This document shows positions 10,030 through 23,561 of a stretch of 37,224 bases of DNA, one piece after another. The DNA comes from Chloroflexota bacterium (GTDB lineage Bacteria; Chloroflexota; Chloroflexia; Chloroflexales; Roseiflexaceae): positions 1-37,224 of the forward strand of contig JACAEQ010000019.1 in NCBI GenBank assembly GCA_013388755.1, in the 5' to 3' direction. The position numbers were made by a program, and so were the translations under genes. Position 1 is the first letter of the stretch; each line of letters opens with the position of its first letter. Below the pieces are notes generated by a model, which worked only from the letters and a program-made list of their open reading frames with translations, was not told the origin of the DNA and made no database searches.

Positions 10030-10274
10030 GAAGAGACCGGGAGACAAGAGACCGGGAGAAGGGGGGACGAGGAGACGGGGAGATAAGGAGACGGGGAGAC
10101 CGGGAGAAAGGGGGATCGGGAGACGAGGAGACAAGGAGACAGGGGGAGTGTGGAGTATCCAGATCCAGGCTCGGGTCTGAAAAGCCATCAAGTCTCTCGA
10201 GCTCTCCCCCACTCCCCCACTCCCCCACTCCTCCACTTCCCCACTCCCCCACTCCTCCCACTCCCCTCCTCTCT
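10030..10274. repeat. Low-complexity purine tract followed by pyrimidine tract
   Basis: 10030-10147 is almost pure purine with degenerate GGGAGAC/AGGAGAC units. 10198-10274 is a pyrimidine tract of CTCCCCCA-like 7-8 base units. A 50-bp ordinary spacer lies between. The two arms are roughly complementary in kind (purine against pyrimidine) and could pair, form triplex, or form G-quadruplex on the minus strand of the second arm (GGGAGTGGGGGAGT units). The tract lies between the McrB-like gene and purB, and ends about 20 bp before the purB start. Confidence 0.8.
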
Positions 10275-10294: not shown

Positions 10295-11653
10295 ATGACG
10301 CTGACCGCACTTTCGCCGCTCGACGGGCGCTACCATGCCGACGTCGCTGAACTCGAAGCCTATTTCAGCGAGGCGGCATTGTTTCGCTACCGGGTGCGCG
10401 TCGAAGTTGAATATCTGCTGTTCCTGACGCGCGCGCGCAATGTCGATTTCGTACCGCAACTTGACCCGCGCGCAGTGGCGGCGCTACGCGATCTGTACCG
10501 CTCATTCTCCGCCGATGACGCCACAGCGATTGCCGCCTGGGATCGCCAGGTCAATCACGACGTCAAGGCGGTCGAGTACTGGTTGCGCGACCGCCTGGAT
10601 GCGCTTGGCCTGGGCGCCTGGAAGGAAGCGGTTCACTTTGCCCTGACATCGGAAGATGTCAACAACCTGGCCTATGCCCTGATGGTGCGTGAGGCGCGCG
10701 ACCTGGTGCTGCTGCCGGTGATCGGTGAGATTGGCGCAACACTACGCGACCTGGCCTTCCTCGAGGCAGAAACGCCGATGCTCGCCCGCACCCATGGCCA
10801 GCCTGCGACGCCAACGACCTTCGGCAAAGAAATGGCTGTCTTCGCCGCGCGCCTGCAACGCGCACAGCAGGGTGTTGCAACGATTCGGCTGACCGGCAAA
10901 TTGAATGGCGCGACCGGCACGTTTGCCGCGCATACCGTGGCACTGCCGCACGTCGACTGGATGGCGTTCAGTCGGGCGTTTGTGCGCTTCCTTGACCTGG
11001 AGCCGGTATTGTTGACCACACAGATCGAGCCACACGATACCCTTGCCGAGTTGTGCGACGCAGTGCGCCGGCTCAATATGATGTTGATCGATCTCAGCCA
11101 GGATATGTGGCGCTATATCAGTGACCGGTATCTGATACAGATTGTGCGGGCCGGCGAGGTCGGCTCTTCCACTATGCCACATAAGGTCAACCCGATCGAC
11201 TTCGAGAATGCGGAAGGTAACCTGGGCCTGGCCGGTGCGTTACTGGAACACTTCAGCCGCAAGTTGCCCATTTCACGCCTGCAACGTGACCTCACTGACA
11301 GCACTGTGTTGCGCAACCTTGGCGTGGCGTTTGGTTACAGCCTGCTGGGCTACCGGCGTGTACTCAAGGGGCTGGGCAAGATCGCCGTGGATCGGGCCCG
11401 CCTGCTCGATGAGTTGCGCGCGCACCCTGAGGTTCTGGCCGAGGCGGTGCAGACCGTTCTCCGTCGTGCCGGCTACCCCGAGCCATACGAGGCGCTCAAG
11501 CGCCTGACGCGTGGCCATGCCCTGACCCTTGACGCGCTGCATGCCTTCATTGAGGGGCTTGATGTGGCGCCAGATGTGAAGGCTGAGTTGCGGGCGCTTG
11601 CCCCCGAGACTTATACGGGCCTGGCGGCTCGCCTGGCGCGAAGCCTGGGGTAG
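10295..11653 (+). CDS. purB: Adenylosuccinate lyase
   Basis: Cytoplasmic homotetrameric lyase acting twice in purine synthesis: it cleaves SAICAR to AICAR and adenylosuccinate to AMP, releasing fumarate. 452 aa, the normal length for the long bacterial (E. coli-like) type. Landmarks are SPLDGRY at the N-terminus, NHDVKAVEYWL, HFALTSEDVNN, ARTHGQPATPTTFGKE, and the fumarase/aspartase superfamily signature GSSTMPHKVNP carrying the catalytic loop Ser. The ATG at 10295 is preceded by AAAGGGAG at a good distance. The 5' leader runs through the pyrimidine tract, so expression may depend on that structure. No other purine gene is adjacent; the divergent PurD-like gene is 7.5 kb away on the other strand. 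Confidence 0.97.
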   Translation: MTLTALSPLDGRYHADVAELEAYFSEAALFRYRVRVEVEYLLFLTRARNVDFVPQLDPRAVAALRDLYRSFSADDATAIAAWDRQVNHDVKAVEYWLRDRLDALGLGAWKEAVHFALTSEDVNNLAYALMVREARDLVLLPVIGEIGATLRDLAFLEAETPMLARTHGQPATPTTFGKEMAVFAARLQRAQQGVATIRLTGKLNGATGTFAAHTVALPHVDWMAFSRAFVRFLDLEPVLLTTQIEPHDTLAELCDAVRRLNMMLIDLSQDMWRYISDRYLIQIVRAGEVGSSTMPHKVNPIDFENAEGNLGLAGALLEHFSRKLPISRLQRDLTDSTVLRNLGVAFGYSLLGYRRVLKGLGKIAVDRARLLDELRAHPEVLAEAVQTVLRRAGYPEPYEALKRLTRGHALTLDALHAFIEGLDVAPDVKAELRALAPETYTGLAARLARSLG

Positions 11654-11981: not shown

Positions 11982-12449
11982 ATGACGAATTCGCATGCCG
12001 ATCCCGCCGAACGCGCCGAGTATGACGTATTACTGATCCGCCTGGACGACGAAGTCTATGCGCTGTCATCGGCGAATGTCCGTGAGGTTGGTCGCTATCG
12101 TCAGTTCACCCCCGTTCCCGGTGCACCCCCGACGTTGCCCGGAATTGTGAGCCAGCGTGGCGTCATCCTGCCGATCGTTGATCTGCGCCTTGTCCTGGGG
12201 ATGAGCGCGGCGGAAGCGACTCGCGCATCGCGCCTGGTGACCGTCGTTCACGAAGAGGTCGAGATGGCGCTGCTGGTGGATGCCGTGATCGATCTCACGG
12301 CCATGCCGGCCGCTACGTTCGGGCCCGTTCCGCCGGCACTCGACCCGGCGCGCGCCCGGTTTCTCCGCACGGTTGCGTACCACAACGACCAGACGGTTGC
12401 GCTGCTCGATGTGGGTGAGATTGTTGCCGTTCTCCGGGATTGGACGTGA
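11982..12449 (+). CDS. cheW: CheW-like chemosensory adaptor
   Basis: 155-residue single CheW domain, the scaffold that couples chemoreceptors to CheA. Visible: YDVLLIRLDDEVYALSSANVREVGRY, FTPVPGAPPTLPGIVSQRG, VILPIVDLRLVLGM, then VVHEEVEMALLVDAVIDL and the C-terminal LLDVGEIV, all in CheW order. The ATG at 11982 was chosen because the CheW homology starts about 15 residues later; the frame is open upstream but that part is repeat sequence. No strong Shine-Dalgarno is seen. First gene of an eleven-gene co-directional cluster ending at 23561. Confidence 0.9.
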   Translation: MTNSHADPAERAEYDVLLIRLDDEVYALSSANVREVGRYRQFTPVPGAPPTLPGIVSQRGVILPIVDLRLVLGMSAAEATRASRLVTVVHEEVEMALLVDAVIDLTAMPAATFGPVPPALDPARARFLRTVAYHNDQTVALLDVGEIVAVLRDWT

Positions 12450-12498
12450 TGGCCGGCGCTGGCTGACCGGCGTTGCGCCCGGGTCGCTCCCTTCTGAG

Positions 12499-12909
12499 GT
12501 GCGAGGTCGTCCTGTGCTGATTATCATTCGCACCACACGTCGCAGGTATGCTGTCCGCCACGACGATGTGGCAGCGTTACGGGTTGTCGCACGGGCCGAG
12601 GATCTTCATCGGCAGGATGTGGCCGGCCGCCCCTATGTCGGCGTTGAGCTGGGGCCGCTGCTCGACCCTGCGGATCGGAGCGACGCACAGCGGCGCCATG
12701 CGTTGATCGTGCCGTTACGGCGGCGGAATGTCGCGCTGCTGGTGGATGCGGTCGATACGCTGATCGAACATGCTGCGCCGCAGCCATTGCCATCGTTGCT
12801 TCGCGATCGATTGCGCCCCCCATGGGCAATCGGCGCGGTGCTCATCAACGACCAGCTGGTGGTCCAGCTTGATATACGCGAGGTGGCGCGCAGCGCATTG
12901 TTGCTGTGA
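12499..12909 (+). CDS. Second, divergent CheW-like protein
   Basis: About 136 residues from a GTG at 12499 (another GTG at 12514 is possible; there is no ATG in frame near the domain start). Pattern: PVLIIIRTTRRRYAVRHDDVAALRVV, YVGVELGPLLDP, HALIVPLRRRNVALLVDAVDTLIEH, AIGAVLINDQLVVQLDIREV. This is the CheW fold with its usual hydrophobic strands, but the P-G-I-x-x-x-R-G core loop is missing, so receptor or CheA contacts may differ. It begins about 50 bp after cheW. It may be a specialised adaptor for one of the other signalling proteins of the cluster. Confidence 0.75.
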   Translation: MRGRPVLIIIRTTRRRYAVRHDDVAALRVVARAEDLHRQDVAGRPYVGVELGPLLDPADRSDAQRRHALIVPLRRRNVALLVDAVDTLIEHAAPQPLPSLLRDRLRPPWAIGAVLINDQLVVQLDIREVARSALLL

Positions 12910-13114
12910 CGCGAGTAAGGGTTCGTCGTTGCGGAGCGCCCCCCGGTTGCGCACAATCGGCGGAGGCCCCGGAGCCAGACATTGGCGGCAGGTAGCTTTC
13001 ACAGGTGCGGAGATGTTGCCTCGCCGACAGGGCGTACCGTGCCGGCGAGACTCCCGCGATCCCGGCGTGTACAGGTAAATGACAAAAGGCAGATAGCAAG
13101 AAGCAGGCATTGCA

Positions 13115-14605
13115 ATGGATCATGTTTCTAACCGCCAGATGTTCGCCAACGTTATCACGAACCCGCAGAGCCAGGACGCCGATCGCTCCCGGCTACTGAC
13201 GCGCCTGACGCTGGTGTTTGGCGGAGTAGCCGGCACCGGCTGCCTGCTGGTGATCGCCATGGGGCTGGTAGGCATCATGCCGGCGCAGGTCATCGGCGCG
13301 GCGATCGGTGTCTTTGCGATGGTGGCGCTGATCGCAGGCAGTACGCTTGGTGCTGCGCGAGCCGGCAGGCACCAGCTGGCGGCCAATGTCTTCCTGTACG
13401 GTTCGCTGATCTATGTCGCCGGTATGATCTACCTGGCCGGCGGTGTCGGCGGGCCGGCAGCGGTCGCCTTTCTGTTTCCTATCGTGGTTGCCGGGCTGTT
13501 CGGACGCGCGACGGAAAGCCCGCGCCTGTTTGTGCTGGCGCTGGTCAGTTATCTCGCGCTTGCCGCCGCCGAAACCACGGGCATGCTTCAGCCGCAGAAC
13601 GATCTTCCCGGCCTGCCGCGCACGCTGGCATTCATCCTCTTCTTTGCCAGTGTCGGCGGCTTGCTGACCTACGTGGCATCGCTGTGGTCCACCAGTACGA
13701 GGCGCTTCCTTGAACAGGGCCGTTCGCAATCGGAAGAGTTGTACGATACCAATCAGCGGTTGATCGAGAAAAATATCCAGCAGGTTGAACTGGGCAGCGA
13801 ACTATCGGAGGCTGCCACCGAACTGCTACGGGCATCCCATGAGCAGGCGAGCGGCGCCTCCGAGCAGGCGAGCGCCGTCTCGCAGGTCAGCACGACGATC
13901 GAAGAACTGGGCTCGACCGCGCGCCAGATTGCCATTGCTGCCGAGCAGGTCGCCGAAGCTGCGCGCCAGACGCTGGAGAATCTGAGCGAAGGGCAGGAAG
14001 CGGTCGATAAGAGTATTCAGGCGATGGATCGTATTCGCAGCCGCATGCAGGATGTCTCGGCACGGGTGCTCAACCTGGGTGAACGCTCGCAGCAGATTGG
14101 CGAGATTATCGACCTGATCAACGATCTTTCCGACGAAACGCACCTGCTGGCACTGAATGCCGCGATCGAGGCGGCTGGCGCCGGAGAGCATGGCCGCCGC
14201 TTCGCGGTGGTGGCCGCCGAGGTGAAAAGCCTGGCCAACCGCGCGCTGGCCGCCGCCAAAGAGGTGAAAGGCGTGATCGCCGAGATCCAGCAGGCCACCA
14301 ACTCTGCGGTCCTGGCAGCTGAAGAAGGCGGAAAAGAGGTTGCGGCGGGTGTGGAACTGGCGCATAGCGCCGGCCAGGTGATGGATGCGATTGTCATGGT
14401 TGCTGAACGTACCGCTCAGAGCAGCGCCGAAATCAACCTGGCGACCGCGCAGCAACAGAGCGCCAGCGAGCAGGTGGTCGAAACCATGCGTGAGATTGCC
14501 GACGTGGCACGCCGCACTGCCGCTGGCGCACGCCAGGTGCAGGATGCCGCCCAGCGGCTCACCGCCATCGCGAACCGGTTGCACGGCTTATCGCGCGATC
14601 AATGA
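13115..14605 (+). CDS. Methyl-accepting chemotaxis protein with a membrane-embedded sensor
   Basis: 496 aa. Residues 25-195 contain about six hydrophobic spans (LTLVFGGVAGTGCLLVIAMGLVGI, VFAMVALIAGSTLGAA, AAVAFLFPIVVAGLFG, FVLALVSYLALAAAE, LAFILFFASVGGLLTYVASL) with very short loops and no periplasmic ligand domain. No HAMP domain is evident; a linker of about 30 residues (RRFLEQGRSQSEEL...) leads to the cytoplasmic coiled coil. The MCP signalling tip is at about residues 330-375: IGEIIDLINDLSDETHLLAL, NAAIEAAGAGEHGRRFAVVA. Glu/Gln-rich positions that CheR and CheB could modify occur in the flanking helices. It probably senses a membrane property, or a ligand or redox state within the bilayer. 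It overlaps cheA by 4 bases (ATGA), so the two are co-translated. Confidence 0.93.
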   Translation: MDHVSNRQMFANVITNPQSQDADRSRLLTRLTLVFGGVAGTGCLLVIAMGLVGIMPAQVIGAAIGVFAMVALIAGSTLGAARAGRHQLAANVFLYGSLIYVAGMIYLAGGVGGPAAVAFLFPIVVAGLFGRATESPRLFVLALVSYLALAAAETTGMLQPQNDLPGLPRTLAFILFFASVGGLLTYVASLWSTSTRRFLEQGRSQSEELYDTNQRLIEKNIQQVELGSELSEAATELLRASHEQASGASEQASAVSQVSTTIEELGSTARQIAIAAEQVAEAARQTLENLSEGQEAVDKSIQAMDRIRSRMQDVSARVLNLGERSQQIGEIIDLINDLSDETHLLALNAAIEAAGAGEHGRRFAVVAAEVKSLANRALAAAKEVKGVIAEIQQATNSAVLAAEEGGKEVAAGVELAHSAGQVMDAIVMVAERTAQSSAEINLATAQQQSASEQVVETMREIADVARRTAAGARQVQDAAQRLTAIANRLHGLSRDQ

Positions 14606-16854
14606 CCATGGACCTGACGTCGTTCCATATCCAGTTTCGTGATGAGACGGCGGAGAACATCCGCATCGTCACCGAAGGTCTCATGGCGATCGAGGGCAAC
14701 GGCCTCGATGGTGAGGCGCGCCGCGAGCAGATCGATACGGTCTTTCGCGCCATGCACACGATCAAAGGTTCGGCGCGCATGCTCGGTCTTGAGGCGATCG
14801 GCCGCGTGGCGCACACCTGTGAACACATTCTGGCCGCGGTACGCGAGGGGAGGCGCGATCTCGATCGCAACCTGACCGACGAACTGCTGAAAGGCGGTGA
14901 CGCCATCCTGGAACTGGTCGCTGCCGCGCTGGATGGTAAGCCGTCGGCGATTGACGTCGATGCGCTGACGGCCCGCCTTGGCCGGGGTATGCCGCGATCG
15001 CCGGCGACGCCCGAGCCGCCGCCACTCATGCTGGTCGAGCCGCCGACGGAGACCCCGGGCGATGGCGGTGTGGCGCGTGCCGAGACGATTACGCCGCGCG
15101 CATCGCGTGACCGTTCACGGCAGACGGTGCGTGTGCGCGTTGATCGGCTCGATCGCCTGCTGAACCTGGCGGGCGAACTGGCGATTGGCCGGCAGGCCGA
15201 GGCGGCTCACGTTCAGGCACTTGATGAATTGAAACTGTTGCTCGAACAACAGCAACGCACACTGCTGGCGCTTGAGTCCGAACTGCGCCGCGTGCGCCTG
15301 ACGCCGTCGCAACGCGATGTGTTTGATCGCGAGATCAATGTGGTGCTCAATACGGGCGAACGCGCCGGCACGCTTGTCAAAACGCACCTCGATCGTTTCA
15401 GCCAGCACGCCGGGTTGACGGCGCAGCTCATTGACGATCTCGAGCAGGAGGTCATGGCGGTTCGCCTGATGCCGGTGTCGGCGCTGTATGCTAACATGCC
15501 GCGCGCGGTGCGAGAACTGGCGCGCGACCTGGGCAAAGAGGTGTCGTTGATGCTCGCTGGCGAAACGACCGAGCTTGACCGGAAAGTCATCGAGGCGCTG
15601 ACCGATCCATTGATCCATCTCCTGCGCAACGCTATCGATCACGGTATCGAACCGGCGGACGAGCGCGAACAGCGGGGAAAGCCACGCCAGGGTGCGATCG
15701 AGATCACGGCGCGGGCAATCGGCGGTAATGTACAGATCAGCGTTCGTGACGACGGTCGGGGCATGGATCCGCAGCAGTTGCGCGAAGCCGCCGTGCGGAA
15801 AGGTCTGCTGACCGCCGAGGCTGCCGCGCTGCTGACCGACCAGGAGGCGATTGAGCTCGTCTTCATGCCCGGGTTTACCACCGCCCGGTTGATCACCGAT
15901 GTGTCGGGGCGTGGCGTCGGGATGGATGTGGTACGCACCAATATCGCTGAAATCGGCGGGCAGGTATTGCTCGAATCGCAGGCTGGCGCCGGAACGACCG
16001 TGACGCTGGTGTTGCCGTTGACACTTGTGACCACGCGTGTGCTGCTTGTGGAGGCCGGTGGGCATCTCTTCGGCGTGCCCGCTTCGGGGTGCCAGGGCAC
16101 GGTGTGGGTGCGCCGCAATCAGGTTCGCACCGTTGAAGGCCGGGCGATGTTGCCGCATGAATATGGCCTGACGCCGCTCCTGCGCCTTGATGAGCTGCTG
16201 GGGATCGCGAACGGCCAGCCGTTTGGCAATGCCGCGCGTGTGCCGGCCCTCCTGATTGGCGGCGCGCGCCGGCCCATGGCGATCCTGGTTGACCGGATGG
16301 TCGACGAGCGCGAAGCGGTCATCAAACCGCTCGGCCCATTGCTGGAGAAACAACGTCGCTATAGCGGCGCACTGCAACTTGGCGACGGGCGCCTCGCGCT
16401 GCTGCTCAACCCGATGACACTGGCGCAGATGGGGCGCGGTACTGCGCTCGTTACGCAGACCACCCAGGATCAGAGCCAGCGGCGTCGCTCGCGACTGCTG
16501 GTGGTGGATGATTCATTTGCAACTCGCGAGCTTATCCGTAGCATCCTCAACGCGGCCGGCTATGAGGTGTCCACCGCGGTTGATGGCGCTGATGCGCTTG
16601 AGCGGTTGCGTACCGAAACCTACGACCTGGTGGTCAGCGATGTTGAAATGCCGCGTGTGGATGGGTTCATGCTGACCAGTCGCATTCGAACCGAACTGGG
16701 CAAGATCGATCTGCCGGTGATTATTGTGACCAGTCTGGCATCGGAGTCGCACCGCCGGCGTGGCCTTGAAGCCGGCGCTCAGGCCTACATTGTGAAGAGC
16801 CAGTTCAATCAAAGCAACTTGCTGGAGACCATCCGGCAACTGCTTGGTGCGTAG
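14602..16854 (+). CDS. cheA: CheA-type hybrid histidine kinase with C-terminal receiver
   Basis: 750-aa central kinase of the chemosensory array. Order: Hpt domain (about 1-110) with phospho-His H52 in MHTIKGSARMLGL; a short proline-rich linker where the P2 domain would be; the P3 dimerisation segment (VRVDRLDRLLNLAGELAIGR); an HATPase domain with N-box LLRNAIDHGIE (N343), DDGRGMD and the G2 box SGRGVGMDVV; a CheW-like P5 domain (about 480-620); and a receiver domain (about 630-750) with acidic pair VVDDS and phospho-Asp D680 in VVSDVEMPRVDG. Absence of P2 and presence of the receiver resemble CheA of gliding/twitching systems more than flagellar CheA. The receiver may act as a phosphate sink or output. 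It is the likely phosphodonor for CheY (16927) and CheB (17392). Confidence 0.95.
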   Translation: MTMDLTSFHIQFRDETAENIRIVTEGLMAIEGNGLDGEARREQIDTVFRAMHTIKGSARMLGLEAIGRVAHTCEHILAAVREGRRDLDRNLTDELLKGGDAILELVAAALDGKPSAIDVDALTARLGRGMPRSPATPEPPPLMLVEPPTETPGDGGVARAETITPRASRDRSRQTVRVRVDRLDRLLNLAGELAIGRQAEAAHVQALDELKLLLEQQQRTLLALESELRRVRLTPSQRDVFDREINVVLNTGERAGTLVKTHLDRFSQHAGLTAQLIDDLEQEVMAVRLMPVSALYANMPRAVRELARDLGKEVSLMLAGETTELDRKVIEALTDPLIHLLRNAIDHGIEPADEREQRGKPRQGAIEITARAIGGNVQISVRDDGRGMDPQQLREAAVRKGLLTAEAAALLTDQEAIELVFMPGFTTARLITDVSGRGVGMDVVRTNIAEIGGQVLLESQAGAGTTVTLVLPLTLVTTRVLLVEAGGHLFGVPASGCQGTVWVRRNQVRTVEGRAMLPHEYGLTPLLRLDELLGIANGQPFGNAARVPALLIGGARRPMAILVDRMVDEREAVIKPLGPLLEKQRRYSGALQLGDGRLALLLNPMTLAQMGRGTALVTQTTQDQSQRRRSRLLVVDDSFATRELIRSILNAAGYEVSTAVDGADALERLRTETYDLVVSDVEMPRVDGFMLTSRIRTELGKIDLPVIIVTSLASESHRRRGLEAGAQAYIVKSQFNQSNLLETIRQLLGA

Positions 16855-16926
16855 CCCTTCCCCTGTCTTCTATCGTCGCTCGTGCCCGGTGTGCCGGTTG
16901 CGATGCGAAAGGACACGAGGTTCATC

Positions 16927-17289
16927 ATGGCGGAAAAGATCCTGGTCGTTGATGACAGCAAGCTGGTGACCGATATTGTCAAGATGCGTCTTGGCATGTA
17001 TGGTTATGATGTGCGCCTGGCGCATAGCGGCGAGGACGCGCTCAAGGCGATCGAGGACGAAGTGCCTGATCTCCTGGTGCTTGATGTGCACATGCCCGGC
17101 ATTGACGGGTATGAGGTCTGTCGCCGGTTGCGTGATAACCCGGAACTCGATGATCTGCGCATCATTATGCTCACGTCGAGTGACGACAAGCATGCCGCAT
17201 TTGAAGCTGGCGTGGACGATTACCTGAACAAGGATGTTGATCTCCTCAATCTGCCGAATCGCGTAAAAATGATCCTGGAAATGGATTAG
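16927..17289 (+). CDS. CheY-like single-domain response regulator
   Basis: 120 residues, only a receiver domain. Acidic pair VVDDS, phospho-Asp D53 in LVLDVHMPGIDGYE, switch Thr/Ser in MLTSSDD, and conserved Lys K102 in DDYLNKDVD, where the usual K-P is K-D. The ATG at 16927 follows GGACACGAGG. It lies 72 bp after cheA. With no flagellar motor gene in view, its target is unknown; candidates in the cluster are the RsbU-like phosphatase and the TPR protein. PatA/PilH-like or shuttle roles are also possible. Confidence 0.92.
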   Translation: MAEKILVVDDSKLVTDIVKMRLGMYGYDVRLAHSGEDALKAIEDEVPDLLVLDVHMPGIDGYEVCRRLRDNPELDDLRIIMLTSSDDKHAAFEAGVDDYLNKDVDLLNLPNRVKMILEMD

Positions 17290-17391
17290 TCGTAGGGTGC
17301 GCAGTTTGACTGTACGGCCTGCGCTCTATTGTTGTGCAATCAGAGCCTCCGACCGACCGTCGTTGGCGCCGAGGCGAAAAGAGCAGGTTCC

Positions 17392-18525
17392 ATGACCACG
17401 CCCATCCGTGTTGTTGTCGTTGATGACTCTGCTTTGATGCGGCGCTTCATTACGGAAATGCTTCAGCGCGATCCGGCGATCCGGGTGATTGGCACGGCAT
17501 CGAATGGCCGGGAGGCGATTGATGTCGTGCAGCAGTTGCGCCCGGATGTGGTGACAATGGACGTTCGTATGCCGGTGATGGATGGCCTGGCGACCACCGA
17601 GCATTTGATGGCCTATTGCCCGACGCCCATTCTGGTGCTGACGGCTTCGCTGGCAAGCTACGAGGTGGACATTACCTTCAAGATGCTTGGCGCCGGTGCG
17701 CTGGAGGTGGTGGAAAAGCCACAGAATGCTGATGCCCGCGCGCTCGATCACGCGGCGCGCGATCTGGTGCGGCGGGTCAAAATCCTCTCGCGCGTGAAGG
17801 TTGTCACCCACCTGCGTGGCAGGCGTCGCGCATCCGACACGGGCACACCTGCCGCAACACAGATCAAGCATGGTTCTGAAGCGCCTGAGCGTGAGCGACA
17901 TAGCACTGACGGTGCCGCGCCAGTGCCGCCGGCCCCCGCTGCTGCGCCGTACGGGCTTGCCTTCCCGACGATCGTGATCGGTGCCAGTACCGGTGGACCG
18001 CGGGTCGTCCACCAGATTCTTGCCGGTCTGCCGCGTCATTTTCCAGCCGCAGTGGTGATTGTGCAGCATATTGCCGAGGGTTTCAGCGAAGGAATGGCCG
18101 AGTGGCTTGCGAGCGCCGGTTCGCTGCCGGTGCATGTTGCCACCGAAGGGCGCCCGCTGCGCCCGGGAGAGGCAATCGTTGCGCCCGACCGCCGCGACCT
18201 GCTGGTAACCCCCGAGGGTGCGGTGCATCTAAGTGACTCCGCATTGCTCATCCAGCGCCCATCGATCGACATCACCATGCAGGCGATTGCTGATGTCTGC
18301 GGGCCGCGCACGATCGGCGTACTGCTGACCGGCATGGGGCGCGACGGTGCGTATGGTATGCTTGCGGTACGTCGCCGGCGCGGGTATACGATTGCGCAGG
18401 ACGAAGCGAGTTGCGCGATCTCCGGCATGCCGCGCGCCGCGATGCAGCTTGGTGCCATCATGGAGGTGCTGACCCCGGCTGCAATGGCACCGCGCCTGGT
18501 TGAACTGGCAGCGAGTTTGCTATGA
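17392..18525 (+). CDS. cheB: Chemotaxis response regulator protein-glutamate methylesterase
   Basis: 377 aa. It removes methyl groups from receptor glutamates for adaptation. The N-terminal receiver has VVVDDSALMRR and phospho-Asp D57 (VTMDVRMPVMDG). After a linker of about 60 residues comes the methylesterase domain with catalytic Ser S199 in IGASTGGP, His H226 in VQHIAEG and Asp D318 in LLTGMGRDGAYGM, a complete triad. The ATG at 17392 was chosen because CheB homology begins two residues later. The stop overlaps the cheR start by 4 bases (ATGA), as expected for co-translated adaptation enzymes. Confidence 0.96.
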   Translation: MTTPIRVVVVDDSALMRRFITEMLQRDPAIRVIGTASNGREAIDVVQQLRPDVVTMDVRMPVMDGLATTEHLMAYCPTPILVLTASLASYEVDITFKMLGAGALEVVEKPQNADARALDHAARDLVRRVKILSRVKVVTHLRGRRRASDTGTPAATQIKHGSEAPERERHSTDGAAPVPPAPAAAPYGLAFPTIVIGASTGGPRVVHQILAGLPRHFPAAVVIVQHIAEGFSEGMAEWLASAGSLPVHVATEGRPLRPGEAIVAPDRRDLLVTPEGAVHLSDSALLIQRPSIDITMQAIADVCGPRTIGVLLTGMGRDGAYGMLAVRRRRGYTIAQDEASCAISGMPRAAMQLGAIMEVLTPAAMAPRLVELAASLL

Positions 18526-19976
18526 GCGTGTCAGACGATCGCTCTGCCGTTCCGGCGCTCCGGCTCACATCCGAAGCCTTTGATCGCCTGCGCAACGTGC
18601 TGGCGGGGTATAGCGGCGTGTATCTTGATACGGCGCAACAACGCGTGCTTGAGTCGGGCCTGGCGCAACGTATGGCGCTGCTCGGTGATGCGCTCGACGC
18701 GTATGAGCGGCGGATCATGTCGCCGGCAGGCCGCGATGAATTGCAGCGCCTGTCCGAACTGGTCGTGAACCACGAAACGGTCTTCTTCCGCAACGCGCCG
18801 CATCTGCGCGCCTTGCGCGAGACCATCCTGCTTGAACAGCATCGCCGTAAGCCGGCGGGCGTGCCGATCCGGATCTGGAGCGCCGGCTGCGCGACCGGTG
18901 AAGAAGCGTATTCGCTGGCGATCGTCGCCCTTGAAACGTTTGGTCGAGCACTGGTTCGCCCGGTCGAGATCTGGGCGACCGATCTGAGCGAACTGGCGCT
19001 TGAAAAGGCGCGTGCCGGCTTTTATCGTGGACGTTCGTTGAACAATGTGACGCCATTGTTGCTCGAACGCTATTTCGTAAGCCGTGGTGATGGGTTCGTG
19101 GTCTCGGACGCGGTGCGCGCGCTGGTTCGTTTTGAACGTCTGAATCTGCTGGAGGCATTTCCACCGGCTGCCTACGGCGTTGATGCCATTTTCTGCCAGA
19201 ATGTGACGATTTACTTCCGGCCCGAGACGCGCCGGACGCTGATCGAGCGCTTCCACCGCTGCCTGCCCGAGGATGGGCTGTTGTTTCTGGGCTTTTCAGA
19301 GACGCTGTGGAACGTGTTTGACGGCTTTCGCTCGCGCGAGGTATCGGGCGCCTATGTGTATCACAAAGTTGAACTGCCGTCGCCGCCATTGCGGCGCCGC
19401 CCACCGGCGATCCGCCCGGCCGCTGCGGCGGAAGCACGCCGACGAACACCCCCTGGAACGTTACCGCCTGCACCGGCTGACGACGATGTGTTGCGTCTGC
19501 GCCAGGCCCAGGAATTGCTGGATGCCGGTGCCGTCGAGCAGGCGGTCGAGTTATTGCGTGGCGTGCGACCCAACTCGCCACTGGCGCCACGAGCACTGGT
19601 GCTGGTGGCGCGCGCGCATGCTGACCGTGGCGAACTTGACCTGGCGGTCGCTGAAGCGCGACGCGCGCTCGAAATCGACCCGCTACGCGAGGATGCCTAT
19701 CTGCTGACCGGCACAGTGTATGCCCGGCAAGGGCAGTGGGCCGATGCCATTCGCGAACTTGAGCGCGCGCGCTATTTGAATCCCAATGCTGCGCTTGTCT
19801 CATACCACCTGGCGATCGCTTATCAGCAGGGCGGGCGGGTGGAACTTGCAACACGCGAGTTCCGCAATGCATTGCGCAAACTGGCAACGCACCGCCCGGA
19901 GGAATTGCTGGACGGCGTGGAGGTCGGCTGGTTGCATGCCGCGTGTGAGCGACAACTTGCATTGATCGGGACGTAA
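18522..19976 (+). CDS. cheR: CheR-type protein-glutamate methyltransferase with C-terminal TPR domain
   Basis: 484 aa. Residues 1-285 are a CheR SAM-dependent methyltransferase: N-terminal helical domain, NHETVFFRNAPHLRALRETI, the SAM loop IWSAGCATGEEAYSLA, IWATDLSELALEKAR, and FCQNVTIYF, where the usual R-N-V is Q-N-V. Residues 325-460 are TPR repeats (ALVLVARAHADRGELDLAVA, AYLLTGTVYARQGQWADAI, ALVSYHLAIAYQQGGRVELA), which in other CheR-TPR proteins bind receptors or partner proteins. It methylates the MCP and opposes CheB. The TPR domain could also dock the separate TPR protein or the phosphatase downstream. Confidence 0.95.
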   Translation: MSVSDDRSAVPALRLTSEAFDRLRNVLAGYSGVYLDTAQQRVLESGLAQRMALLGDALDAYERRIMSPAGRDELQRLSELVVNHETVFFRNAPHLRALRETILLEQHRRKPAGVPIRIWSAGCATGEEAYSLAIVALETFGRALVRPVEIWATDLSELALEKARAGFYRGRSLNNVTPLLLERYFVSRGDGFVVSDAVRALVRFERLNLLEAFPPAAYGVDAIFCQNVTIYFRPETRRTLIERFHRCLPEDGLLFLGFSETLWNVFDGFRSREVSGAYVYHKVELPSPPLRRRPPAIRPAAAAEARRRTPPGTLPPAPADDDVLRLRQAQELLDAGAVEQAVELLRGVRPNSPLAPRALVLVARAHADRGELDLAVAEARRALEIDPLREDAYLLTGTVYARQGQWADAIRELERARYLNPNAALVSYHLAIAYQQGGRVELATREFRNALRKLATHRPEELLDGVEVGWLHAACERQLALIGT

Positions 19977-19986
19977 AGCGGATTGT

Positions 19987-21066
19987 ATGAGATATCGTCG
20001 CAAACAACCTGCCCGGCACGCGACATTGCTCGGCCACCTGGGGATGGGCCGTCCGCGGCGGCGTTCGCGCTCAGCGGCGGCGCCGGCTCAGCCGCAACTC
20101 AGCCCTGAGGAACTCCGCCGCCAGGCCGAAATCGAGCGCGAGTTGTTGCTGGCGCGCGACATTCAGCAAGGCCTGTTGCTCGAAGCGGTGCCGCGCCTGC
20201 CAGGCTGGGAGATCCACGCCATTTCGCTGCCGGCGCGTGATCTGGGTGGTGATCTGTACGATTTTCTCCCATTTGAGAACGGCTGTCAGGGGATCATGAT
20301 CGGCGATGTCTCCGGCAAAGGGTTGCCGGCGGCATTGCGCATGGCGGTGGCGCGCACTGTGTTCCGTTTTGCAGCGCGGCGCGGCGCGGCGCCATCCTGC
20401 ACGCTGGCCGAAGTCAACCGGAGCATTATTGCCGATATACCGCAGGGCATGATCACCATGCTGTACGCGGTGCTCGATACACGCAGCGGCATCCTGCGCG
20501 TCGCCAACGCCGGGCATCACTATCCGGTGCTGCTCAATGGTCGCGTCAGCGAACTGGAGTTGTCCGGGTTGCCACTCGGCGTTGACGACGATACCGACTA
20601 CGAGGAAATATGCACTGAGATCGCTCCTGGCGATACGGTGATCCTCTATACCGATGGGGTCGTCGAGGCGACGAATCGAACCGAGGAATATTTTGGCTAT
20701 GAACGCCTGGAACAGATGCTGGTCGAAGGCGCAACACTGAAGCCGCGTGCGCTGGTGGCGCGATTACTGCACGAACTACGCGCCTGGAGTGATAATAATC
20801 AGGATGATGACATCACCGTGGTGGTCATGCGCCGCCGGCTCGAACGGCTGGCGGCTGAGTTGCGCACGATCGCCGATGATGTCCTGGGCGCGGCGCGTGC
20901 CGGCGAATTGTGGGCGGCCCTGCCCTGCCCGGGCGATGAAGAGTCGCCGGCGGCATGGGCCGAGATCTTGCCCGACATGGTCCGGCTGGCGCAGGAACGC
21001 TTTGGCCGTGGCCTGGCGCGTGAATTGAATGCGCAGATCCGCCTGGCGCTCGAAGAGTATCGTTGA
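19987..21066 (+). CDS. RsbU/SpoIIE-like PP2C serine phosphatase
   Basis: 359 aa. A basic N-terminus and a helix (RQAEIERELLLARDIQQGLL) typical of RsbU-type linkers lead into a PPM/SpoIIE phosphatase domain with its metal motifs: RDLGGDLYDF, MIGDVSGKGLPAALRMA, VANAGHHYPVLL, ILYTDGVVEATN and QDDDITVVVM. In partner switching this enzyme dephosphorylates the RsbV-like antagonist so that it can capture the RsbW-like kinase. There is no PAS, GAF or receiver domain, so control must be by protein contact. About 75 residues after the catalytic domain (ERLAAELRTIADDVLG... to the end) form a helical extension I do not recognise. It begins 10 bp after cheR, placing it in the same transcript, and the RsbW- and RsbV-like genes follow two genes later. 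Confidence 0.93.
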   Translation: MRYRRKQPARHATLLGHLGMGRPRRRSRSAAAPAQPQLSPEELRRQAEIERELLLARDIQQGLLLEAVPRLPGWEIHAISLPARDLGGDLYDFLPFENGCQGIMIGDVSGKGLPAALRMAVARTVFRFAARRGAAPSCTLAEVNRSIIADIPQGMITMLYAVLDTRSGILRVANAGHHYPVLLNGRVSELELSGLPLGVDDDTDYEEICTEIAPGDTVILYTDGVVEATNRTEEYFGYERLEQMLVEGATLKPRALVARLLHELRAWSDNNQDDDITVVVMRRRLERLAAELRTIADDVLGAARAGELWAALPCPGDEESPAAWAEILPDMVRLAQERFGRGLARELNAQIRLALEEYR

Positions 21067-21209
21067 ATGTCTTGTAAAAAATAGGGACCAAGGCGCTACC
21101 AAAATGCAACCGAGCTGTACTCGATAACGCGGACAATCGTAGTAGAATAGGGTGGGCTTCGGGGTGCGACGACGGGTCGCGCCGATCGGTGAAAAGGCAC
21201 AGGCTGTCG

Positions 21210-22772
21210 ATGAGCTCGACCGAACCGCTCAATTTCATGCCGCTCGACCTGGATACCTTTACCGGGAGCGAGCGATTTATGGCCGGAACGCGCCTCGGTG
21301 CAGCGTTTGGCCAGGGCATTCGCGCCTACCTGCGCGCTGACTATGGCAATGCGATCGAGCATTTCAAAGCGGCGCTGATCGCTGCCTATATCGAGGGCGA
21401 GGAGCGGGCGCAGATCTATGACCGTGAGCGGGCGATCATCTACCTGTATATCGGCAATGCGCTGGCATTTCAAGAGGATTGGGAGGGTGCGCTGCGCGAG
21501 TACCTCGAAGCAGTGCAGACCGACCCGCAGCTCGCCGAGGCGCACTATAACCTCGGGGTGGCGTTTGCGGCGCAAGGGCGGCTCGATCGAGCGATCGCCG
21601 CGTTCAAGGAGGCGCTTGAGCACAACCAGCGCCTGTACGAGGCGCATTTCTCGCTTGGCCGCTGTTATCAGCGCCTCGATGATGCCGGGCGCGCCTATAT
21701 TCACTATGACCAGGCATGCCAGGCGCGCCCGCAGGCTGCCGAGCCGCGCTACTATATGGGGCTCATGCACCAGAGCCACGGTGCGCATGAACTGGCGCAG
21801 CGCTGTTTTACCGAGGCGTTGCGTGTTGAACCAACCTTCGTTTCGCCGGAAGTGCAGGACGAAGTCCTGGTCAACCGTTCGGAAGAGGAAGTTGCACAGT
21901 GGTACTACCGGCTCAGCCATGATCTGAAGCAGCAGGGGTACGAAGAGGAAGCTGAGCGTATCTATCGCGCGCTGCTGCAGTGGCGCCCGGAAGAACATTA
22001 TGCGCGCTACCTGCTGGGGAACCTGCTGGCGCGTGGCCGGCGGCTCGATCAGGCGCTCGAAACCTACGAGCAGATTCCGCCGCAGGATCGGTACTATGTT
22101 GATGCGCGCATCCGGTTGAGTACCATCCTCAAATTGCAGAACAAGATGCGCGAAGCCTATGATGTCCTGTTTGACTGCGCCCGGCTGCACCCTTCGAACG
22201 GCCAGCTGTTCCTCAACATGGGTAAGTTGCTCTACGATATGAACAAACACGCCGGTGCGGTGAAAGCATTTGAGCGCGCGGTGCAGTTGCTGCCGAATGA
22301 TCCGCAATCACACTACCTGCTCGGTTTCATGTACAACATCATGGGGCGCGAAGGGTGGGCGCTCGCCGCCTGGCGGAAAGCGGTGGATCTTGCGCCGGAC
22401 GCCCATTCATTACGCTATGATCTCGGCTATATGTATGCGCGGCGCAACCGCTACGACCTGGCGGTGAAAGAGTTTGCGCGCGTGCTGCAGTTCTGGCCCG
22501 ACGATATCGAAACCAACTTTATGCTTGGCCTGTGCTACAAGGAGTTGATGGAGCCAGCGCGCGCCATCCCCCTGTTTGAAAAGGTGTTGCGCCGCAATCC
22601 GCGGCATGTGCAGGCGTTGTACTATCTGGGCGCCTCGTATCTGCAGATCGGCAACACATCGCTTGGAAAAGCATACCTCCGGCGCTACGATTACCTGGCC
22701 AGCCAGGATCGCCCCAGCACGCCCGCAATGCGCCGGGCCATACGCCAGCGGAGCGTTGGGGTACCGGGCTGA
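21210..22772 (+). CDS. TPR-repeat protein
   Basis: 520 aa, soluble, almost wholly tetratricopeptide repeats (for example AHYNLGVAFAAQGRLDRAIA, PRYYMGLMHQSHGAHELAQR, GQLFLNMGKLLYDMNKHAGA, SHYLLGFMYNIMGREGWALA, TNFMLGLCYKELMEPARAIP), about a dozen units. TPRs are protein-binding scaffolds. Its place between the phosphatase and the kinase/antagonist pair, and the TPR domain also on CheR, suggest an adaptor linking the array to the partner switch; this is inference. The ATG at 21210 was preferred over the in-frame GTG at 21189; AAAGG at 21194-21198 may be the ribosome binding site. It is separated from the phosphatase gene by 143 bp, so a second promoter is possible (TAGAAT at 21143-21148). Confidence 0.88.
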   Translation: MSSTEPLNFMPLDLDTFTGSERFMAGTRLGAAFGQGIRAYLRADYGNAIEHFKAALIAAYIEGEERAQIYDRERAIIYLYIGNALAFQEDWEGALREYLEAVQTDPQLAEAHYNLGVAFAAQGRLDRAIAAFKEALEHNQRLYEAHFSLGRCYQRLDDAGRAYIHYDQACQARPQAAEPRYYMGLMHQSHGAHELAQRCFTEALRVEPTFVSPEVQDEVLVNRSEEEVAQWYYRLSHDLKQQGYEEEAERIYRALLQWRPEEHYARYLLGNLLARGRRLDQALETYEQIPPQDRYYVDARIRLSTILKLQNKMREAYDVLFDCARLHPSNGQLFLNMGKLLYDMNKHAGAVKAFERAVQLLPNDPQSHYLLGFMYNIMGREGWALAAWRKAVDLAPDAHSLRYDLGYMYARRNRYDLAVKEFARVLQFWPDDIETNFMLGLCYKELMEPARAIPLFEKVLRRNPRHVQALYYLGASYLQIGNTSLGKAYLRRYDYLASQDRPSTPAMRRAIRQRSVGVPG

Positions 22773-22801
22773 GACGCCATCCTGCCGAGGAGAAACGGTC
22801 A

Positions 22802-23236
22802 ATGCAGCGTGTGCTTGTCAACATCCCGTCAGTGCCAATCTTTGAGCGCGTCATCCGCGCCAGCGCCGATGAGGTCGGGCGGGCGCTCGGGTTCAGTGCG
22901 GAACGTATCGAAGATTTGAAACTCGCGGTCAGCGAAGCGGTCAATAATGCCATTGATCACGGCAACCAGCGCCAGCCCGGCAAACTGGTCGAGGTTGTCT
23001 TTGCGCTCGACAGCGATAAGCTTGAGGTGCATATCAGGGACGAGGGCGATGGCGTTGATCACGTCGATTTCTCGCGCAAGATCGTTGAGGATCATAACCT
23101 GGATGCCGGAATGCATCGTGGCTTTGGCATGTATCTGATCAGTGCGCTGGTTGATGACTGTGAAGTGAGTTCGTCACAGTCGGGCACGACGTTGACGTTG
23201 CGGCTGTATCGGAAGGATAACGATCATGACAAGTGA
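22802..23236 (+). CDS. RsbW-like anti-sigma/serine kinase (GHKL ATPase)
   Basis: 144 aa, the normal size of RsbW/SpoIIAB-type switch kinases. N-box LAVSEAVNNAIDHGN; G1-type motif HIRDEGDGVD; G2-like MHRGFGMYLISALVDD. Such proteins bind either a sigma factor or other target, or the unphosphorylated STAS antagonist, which they phosphorylate on Ser. The gene overlaps the downstream STAS gene by 11 bases, the usual tight pairing of kinase and antagonist. No sigma factor is encoded nearby, so the final target is unknown and might not be a sigma factor. The ATG at 22802 follows GAGGAGAAACGG. Confidence 0.94.
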   Translation: MQRVLVNIPSVPIFERVIRASADEVGRALGFSAERIEDLKLAVSEAVNNAIDHGNQRQPGKLVEVVFALDSDKLEVHIRDEGDGVDHVDFSRKIVEDHNLDAGMHRGFGMYLISALVDDCEVSSSQSGTTLTLRLYRKDNDHDK

Positions 23237-23561
23237 AGTGATCCACCGCGAGGAATTTGGCGACGTTGCGGTGCTGCATATTCTGACCAATAGCGTCGAT
23301 GCCGTGTCGGCCAGCGCGATTGAAGCGACGGCGACGGCCAGTGCGATGCGCCCGATTACGGTGCTCGATTTTGCGAATGTGGCGTTTATTAATTCCGCCG
23401 GTATCTCCGCGCTCTTGAAATTTGTCGTCTCGGCGAAGAAGTCGGGATATACGCTGTATGCCATGAATGTGACGCCGCATCACCAGAAGGTATTCAAGAT
23501 GGTTGAGATGTCGCGCTTCATGCCGCCAATCGAGGAGCGCGATCTCGCAGCGTACCGGTAG
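23226..23561 (+). CDS. RsbV-like STAS anti-anti-sigma factor
   Basis: 111 aa, single STAS domain. The key segment VLDFANVAFINSAGISALL carries the Ser that RsbW-type kinases phosphorylate (the NSAG motif), with the fold continuing through YTLYAMNVTPHHQKVFKMVE. When dephosphorylated by the RsbU-like enzyme it should sequester the RsbW-like kinase. It overlaps the kinase gene and is the last gene of the chemosensory/partner-switch cluster. Confidence 0.94.
   Translation: MTSEVIHREEFGDVAVLHILTNSVDAVSASAIEATATASAMRPITVLDFANVAFINSAGISALLKFVVSAKKSGYTLYAMNVTPHHQKVFKMVEMSRFMPPIEERDLAAYR

Follow-up and report, generated by a model that had tools for sequence, protein, structure and literature searches.

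A chemosensory gene cluster of Chloroflexales that may act on an RsbU/RsbW/RsbV-type partner switch, with CheY and a TPR protein as candidate bridge

Does a chemosensory array pass its signal to a serine-phosphorylation partner switch when the genes for both lie side by side? The question is raised by positions 11982-23561 of contig JACAEQ010000019.1 from a member of the Roseiflexaceae; the whole contig of 37,224 nucleotides is called the window here. The genome to which it belongs measures 5.08 Mb in 145 contigs, is 100% complete and is closest to Roseiflexus (Chloroflexota). The locus holds eleven genes, all on the + strand: CheW, a second CheW, a methyl-accepting chemotaxis protein (MCP), CheA with a receiver domain (REC), CheY, CheB, CheR with tetratricopeptide repeats (TPR), a PP2C phosphatase, a TPR protein, an RsbW-type kinase and a STAS protein. 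An earlier note on this DNA had described this co-directional set of Che and switch genes, and the Pfam domains agree with it for every member. CheW-domain proteins occur genome-wide only as the two CheW and the CheA of this cluster, and the MCP is the only one in the genome; therefore, the cluster encodes the sole recognisable chemosensory system. We assign a probability of about 0.5 to the reading that this system is built together with the Ser/Thr partner switch, such that a signal would run from the receptor via CheA, CheY and the TPR protein to the phosphatase and the kinase, with the STAS protein as output.

The residues on which both halves would depend are in place. For the Che half, MCP, CheW, CheA, CheB and CheR are all present, CheB and CheR being judged by domain only. 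His52 and the receiver Asp680 of CheA are invariant in an alignment of relatives, and the phospho-acceptor Asp53 of CheY is intact. The residues N101, K102 and D103 of CheY, which follow beta5 and replace the usual K-P of receivers, are invariant in 17 aligned sequences of the order. The switch half comprises, by sequence, a PP2C phosphatase with its metal-binding aspartates, a GHKL kinase and a STAS protein with an acceptor serine. The PP2C metal-binding motifs GGD-YD, GDVSG, TDG and DD are invariant, the kinase has a conserved SEAV-NAI-HG box and aligns with RsbW (6m36) and SpoIIAB (1th8), and the STAS protein carries the motif NSAGIS, in which Ser57 is invariant in 21 aligned rows. We take Ser57 to be equivalent to Ser58 of SpoIIAA and Ser56 of RsbV.

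Gene order was read in 40 loci of relatives, several of the non-collinear ones ending at contig edges. Leaving aside the second CheW, which has often diverged beyond detection, ten genes were fully collinear in 25 of the 40, more than chance would give, and the exact gene order, whose conservation in related Chloroflexota had been suggested as a check, was thus recovered. Same-strand pairs were counted for CheR and PP2C in 33 loci, for PP2C and TPR in 35, for TPR and kinase in 36 and for kinase and STAS in 34. The organism names attached to these loci are Roseiflexus, Kouleothrix, Chloroflexus, Oscillochloris, Viridilinea, Herpetosiphon and Chloroploca; the order is retained in relatives of Roseiflexus, Chloroflexus, Oscillochloris, Viridilinea and Herpetosiphon, and in four families of the Chloroflexales. 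The deeper relatives L169 (a metagenome-assembled genome of the Chloroheliaceae) and L170-L172 share 44-48% identity in the TPR protein and have the order rsbW-STAS-PP2C-TPR-cheW-cheW-cheA-cheY-(cheB)-cheR, the second cheW being read in L169 and L171. Here, the blocks are swapped, both halves remain together and the TPR gene lies at the junction. In L169 and L171, no MCP was found within the cluster; 9-24 MCP matches lie at other sites of these two genomes and of that of L172. A TPR profile run across 400 genomes of the phylum matched the order and one genome of the same class only. The relatives of the TPR protein outside Chloroflexota were generic TPR proteins of 21-30% identity, and the three checked had no adjoining Che or switch genes.

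Such linkage might also arise if the halves were mere neighbours, uncoupled, with an operon that serves co-regulation only. We consider this very improbable, since the linkage outlasts block rearrangement in the deep relatives and several genera have lost both halves jointly. Among 21 genera, 16 have both halves, one has Che only, none has the switch only and four have neither (Fisher p = 8e-4, kinship ignored). The small genomes of genera g3 and g8, plus G029, have neither orthologous half. AL-N1 (G006) has kept the TPR gene and is without a CheA ortholog, an MCP or a close STAS protein. Two Herpetosiphon-type genomes (G036, G044) have the STAS gene about 30 kb away. In Chloroploca (G052, G056, G057), Che and TPR genes are kept and phosphatase, kinase and STAS genes are all gone from the locus; the best STAS matches elsewhere in these genomes are only 31-34% identical. 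A single-domain response regulator is found downstream of the TPR gene in one annotated Chloroploca locus and in AL-N1 (L073 14489-14857, L079 14829-15275), in AL-N1 with one other gene in between, and is possibly a replacement output.

Chloroploca, with three close genomes, was used as a natural knock-out of the switch. Distances to outgroup families were compared between Chloroploca and the other members of its family. The distance ratios were 1.35 for CheY and 1.45 for the TPR protein, and 1.01-1.08 for CheW, MCP, CheA, CheB and CheR; single other family members gave 0.94-1.05 for CheY and 0.95-1.04 for the TPR protein. In 60 column bootstraps, the ratio never came down to 1.0 for CheY (5-95% range 1.11-1.74) or the TPR protein (1.35-1.59), and the bootstrap ratios of MCP and CheR were barely greater than 1. 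At columns otherwise invariant, Chloroploca has changes in CheY at 6 of 58, in the TPR protein at 19 of 196, in CheA at 1 of 143 and in MCP at 0 of 104; eight control clades have 0-1 changes in CheY and 0-4 in the TPR protein. AL-N1, from which Che and switch are both lost, likewise has a fast TPR gene (0.589 versus 0.31-0.36).

The changes are also unevenly placed. Seventeen of the 19 in the TPR protein fall in the first 205 residues, the N-terminal lobe (hypergeometric p = 3e-4). The cut at residue 205 was set after the list had been seen, yet coincides with the break between two lobes in a structure predicted later. Fourteen of the 19 hit residues conserved in the deep relatives, too, among them L14, D15, T16 and F17 (numbered from the Met at 21210) of the motif MPLDLDTFxGSERFM, which in Chloroploca reads MPLDPGMYSGSERLM. 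For CheY, five of the six changes lie in the alpha4-beta5-alpha5 region (p = 0.03), which is the usual output face of CheY. The evolutionary evidence, mainly from one lineage, suggests that CheY and the N-terminal lobe of the TPR protein were constrained by the switch. Since these two proteins are altered where the switch is lost, they are marked as the likely bridge between Che set and switch. The same divergence, specific to the place where the switch is lost, argues against the halves being uncoupled neighbours.

Several observations weigh against a coupled system. In G026, CheA, MCP and CheW lie about 0.54 Mb from a CheY-CheB-CheR-PP2C-TPR-RsbW-STAS block, and in G319 the switch and TPR genes have no Che genes within the 19 kb read; both split loci would fit mere neighbours. 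The rate signal comes mainly from one lineage of three close genomes. The changes in the TPR protein of AL-N1 are scattered across both lobes. For CheY, three of the six Chloroploca changes equal the state of the deep relatives, and once these are added only D105E, L107F and V113I are still specific to Chloroploca; the evidence from CheY is hence weaker than that from the TPR protein. Finally, the phosphatase of the deep relatives has an N-terminal membrane domain of its own (L169 8220-9656, L171 5908-7254, L265 11225-12646), and the switch may therefore receive a separate input. This domain had no BLASTP similarity to the membrane domain of the MCP and was rejected as its homologue.

The membrane domain, in clusters without an MCP, favours an unlikely alternative in which the switch is input or modulator: the phosphatase would sense another cue, and the STAS protein, via the TPR protein and CheY, would tune the chemosensory output. 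The occurrence of the halves at genus level, where the switch is never found without Che and Che without the switch exists, is as compatible with a modulator as with an output. Against the modulator, the rates of receptor, CheA, CheB and CheW in Chloroploca are unchanged after the loss of the switch, and the phosphatase of the Chloroflexales has no recognised sensor domain; Pfam sees in it neither an RsbT-binding domain nor a receiver. Unlike that of the deep relatives, it has a C-terminal helical extension in place of the N-terminal membrane domain. No known fold could be assigned to this extension; the best structural matches were PP2C domains.

Synteny conservation, co-loss and gene-specific rate changes all support a joint function of Che set and switch. 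The idea that receptor state controls phosphorylation of the STAS protein is thereby supported in part; that the control would run in this direction is plausible. A receiver on the phosphatase was considered as a direct link and rejected: it is absent from the window protein and two deep relatives scanned, and the order-wide alignment leaves no space for it. As no examined phosphatase has a receiver, the coupling, if real, must go via protein contact. In the proposed mechanism, the membrane receptor would form an array with CheW and CheA and govern autophosphorylation of CheA and, from there, phosphorylation of CheY. CheY, with the TPR protein and the phosphatase as its candidate partners, would act on the large TPR protein, which via its N-terminal lobe would alter activity or location of the phosphatase, the RsbW-type kinase or both, and the phosphatase/kinase balance would set phosphorylation of Ser57 of the STAS protein as output. 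We infer that the proteins make these contacts, that the signal runs from Che to the switch and that the target is something other than a dedicated sigma factor. The more specific statement that the array has a serine-phosphorylation partner switch as its dedicated output, and that CheY and a clade-specific TPR adaptor make the connection in place of a receiver-output fusion, is made tentatively, at somewhat short of an even chance.

Whether both halves are read from one transcript bears on the same issue. The overlaps listed earlier are correct, i.e. 4 bp between MCP and cheA, 4 bp between cheB and cheR and 11 bp between the kinase and STAS genes, and the gap from cheR to the phosphatase gene is 10 bp. 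No terminator-like site of the + strand was detected in any gap of the cluster. These features speak for the single transcript that had been proposed; a promoter-like site in the gap between the phosphatase and TPR genes and the variable length of this gap in relatives (-4 to 1592 bp) speak against it. Co-transcription of both halves is likely from the sequence, and a promoter in this gap would suit the reading of independent neighbours. No inverted repeats were found in 21060-21220.

What the STAS protein would act on was approached via sigma factors and pili. In analogy to RsbU/W/V and SigB of Bacillus, the switch could end on a sigma factor encoded elsewhere, with the kinase as anti-sigma factor, and the chemosensory state would then alter transcription. 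RsbW is the closest solved structure to the kinase (E 8e-22), the STAS protein matches the anti-sigma antagonist superfamily, although below the cut-off of that superfamily (E 3.9e-9), and the genome has five region-3 sigma factors. The cluster itself is without a sigma gene. In a tree of 41 region-3 factors from eight genomes (extracytoplasmic function (ECF) factors left out), none of the five tracks the switch, all having relatives in switch-less genomes (Chloroploca, AL-N1, G029). This phyletic test thus gives no support to the suggestion that the cluster acts on gene expression by way of a sigma factor dedicated to it. A sigma factor could persist after its regulator is lost, and ECF factors were outside the test; on balance we regard control of a sigma factor as improbable. 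The cluster contains no motor gene; flagellar genes were not searched for genome-wide. A type IV pilus motor was considered as target and is held improbable: of six secretion-ATPase matches, the three that were inspected had their best scores to TadA/TrbB types. This agrees with a report on three Chloroflexales, in which Tad genes are present, most type IV pilus genes are lacking and a chemoreceptor-like array occurs in one (PMC7332563). That the output is some form of surface behaviour, for example gliding, aggregation or use of Tad pili, is a guess.

Table 1. Genes and gap of the chemosensory and partner-switch cluster. The likely starts at 12499, 16927, 17392 and 21210 come from sequence reading and alignment with relatives.
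Feature	Coordinates	Strand	Evidence
CheW coupling protein 1	11982..12449	+	Pfam CheW 2.7e-26
CheW coupling protein 2, divergent	12499..12909	+	Pfam CheW 1.1e-5; GTG start 12499 chosen by the analyst
MCP receptor, membrane part with several transmembrane segments	13115..14605	+	Pfam MCPsignal 9.6e-38
CheA kinase, C-terminal receiver (P1-P3-P4-P5-REC)	14602..16854	+	Pfam Hpt, H-kinase_dim, HATPase_c, CheW, Response_reg
CheY, lone receiver domain	16927..17289	+	Pfam; ATG 16927
CheB methylesterase with receiver	17392..18525	+	Pfam; ATG 17392
CheR methyltransferase, C-terminal TPR	18522..19976	+	Pfam CheR 2.2e-52 plus TPR repeats
PP2C phosphatase (SpoIIE/RsbU type), C-terminal helical extension	19987..21066	+	Pfam SpoIIE/PP2C 6.8e-51
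143-bp gap, promoter-like site 21121-21148	21067..21209	+	
TPR protein, two lobes, N-terminal motif MPLDLDTFxGSERFM	21210..22772	+	TPR array; ATG 21210
RsbW-type serine kinase	22802..23236	+	Pfam HATPase_c_2 2.7e-27
STAS protein (RsbV/SpoIIAA type)	23226..23561	+	Pfam STAS 1.3e-7; predicted phospho-acceptor Ser57

Neither a ligand-binding nor a HAMP domain was detected in the MCP. Its membrane part (13115-13760) resembles the redox-sensor kinases ActS/PrrB/RegB weakly (E 3.8e-5, far below the curated cut-off), and it is conceivable that the receptor senses a redox or quinone signal. The genome has other partner-switch-like genes, among them a second, unlinked set on contig C57 (L257, 2306-3647) with two RsbW-like sequences and one STAS protein; neither a PP2C nor a sigma gene was recognised on this 8.7-kb contig. 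Elsewhere in the window, the gap upstream of the gene at 10295 has purine-rich 8-bp tandem repeats of the GAGACCGG type at 10033-10145, followed by CTCCCCCA repeats at 10204-10266.

Both halves of the cluster are of known kinds. The switch is like RsbU/RsbW/RsbV and SpoIIE/SpoIIAB/SpoIIAA of Bacillus in its PP2C phosphatase, GHKL serine kinase and STAS protein with acceptor serine. It differs from them in that no sigma gene lies in the cluster or, for region-3 factors, tracks it, in that the phosphatase is without a Pfam-recognised RsbT-binding domain or receiver, and in its linkage to a Che array and a TPR protein. All chemosensory pathways of Chloroflexi were classed earlier as serving alternative cellular functions (ACF), CheR-TPR being typical of them, and Chloroflexi with CheR-TPR were without a prototypal CheR (PMC3447774). 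As in ACF clusters, the CheR of this cluster is the one with C-terminal TPR; however, ACF is marked by multidomain response regulators, whereas the response regulators here are the lone receiver CheY, CheB and the receiver of CheA, and the phosphatase is a protein of its own. The cluster is not filed as ACF, since it has no multidomain response regulator with an output domain.

The closest precedent, likened by description, is Nostoc punctiforme, a filamentous phototroph in which the Che-like Hmp system and the HmpU/V/W partner switch (phosphatase, kinase and STAS protein) both control one behaviour, the motility or development of hormogonia, and in which the STAS protein is seen as the output (PMC6495340, PMC8256260). 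In contrast to Nostoc, the system of Chloroflexales is a single cluster of eleven genes, in which a conserved TPR protein stands where the halves meet, and the secretion ATPases examined are TadA/TrbB-like, whereas Nostoc uses type IV pili. In the open-access papers searched, no link between Che and RsbU (in Chloroflexi or elsewhere), no such cluster, no TPR adaptor and no coupling role were found, most subscription papers lying outside this search; this is weak evidence that the cluster arrangement, the adaptor and its role are without a published description.

Chemoreceptor-like arrays, Tad-pilus genes and gliding have been reported for filamentous Chloroflexota (PMC7332563). The step from sensing to behaviour in these gliding bacteria is poorly understood, and the cluster provides a concrete, order-wide candidate pathway for it, pointing to CheY and the TPR protein as candidate bridge proteins, to Ser57 of the STAS protein and to the motif LDLDTF. 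If the proposed coupling is true, a Che array can drive a target that is neither motor nor cyclase nor transcription factor, and the Chloroflexota would join the cyanobacteria as a second phylum where one behaviour may be served by a Che system together with a partner switch.

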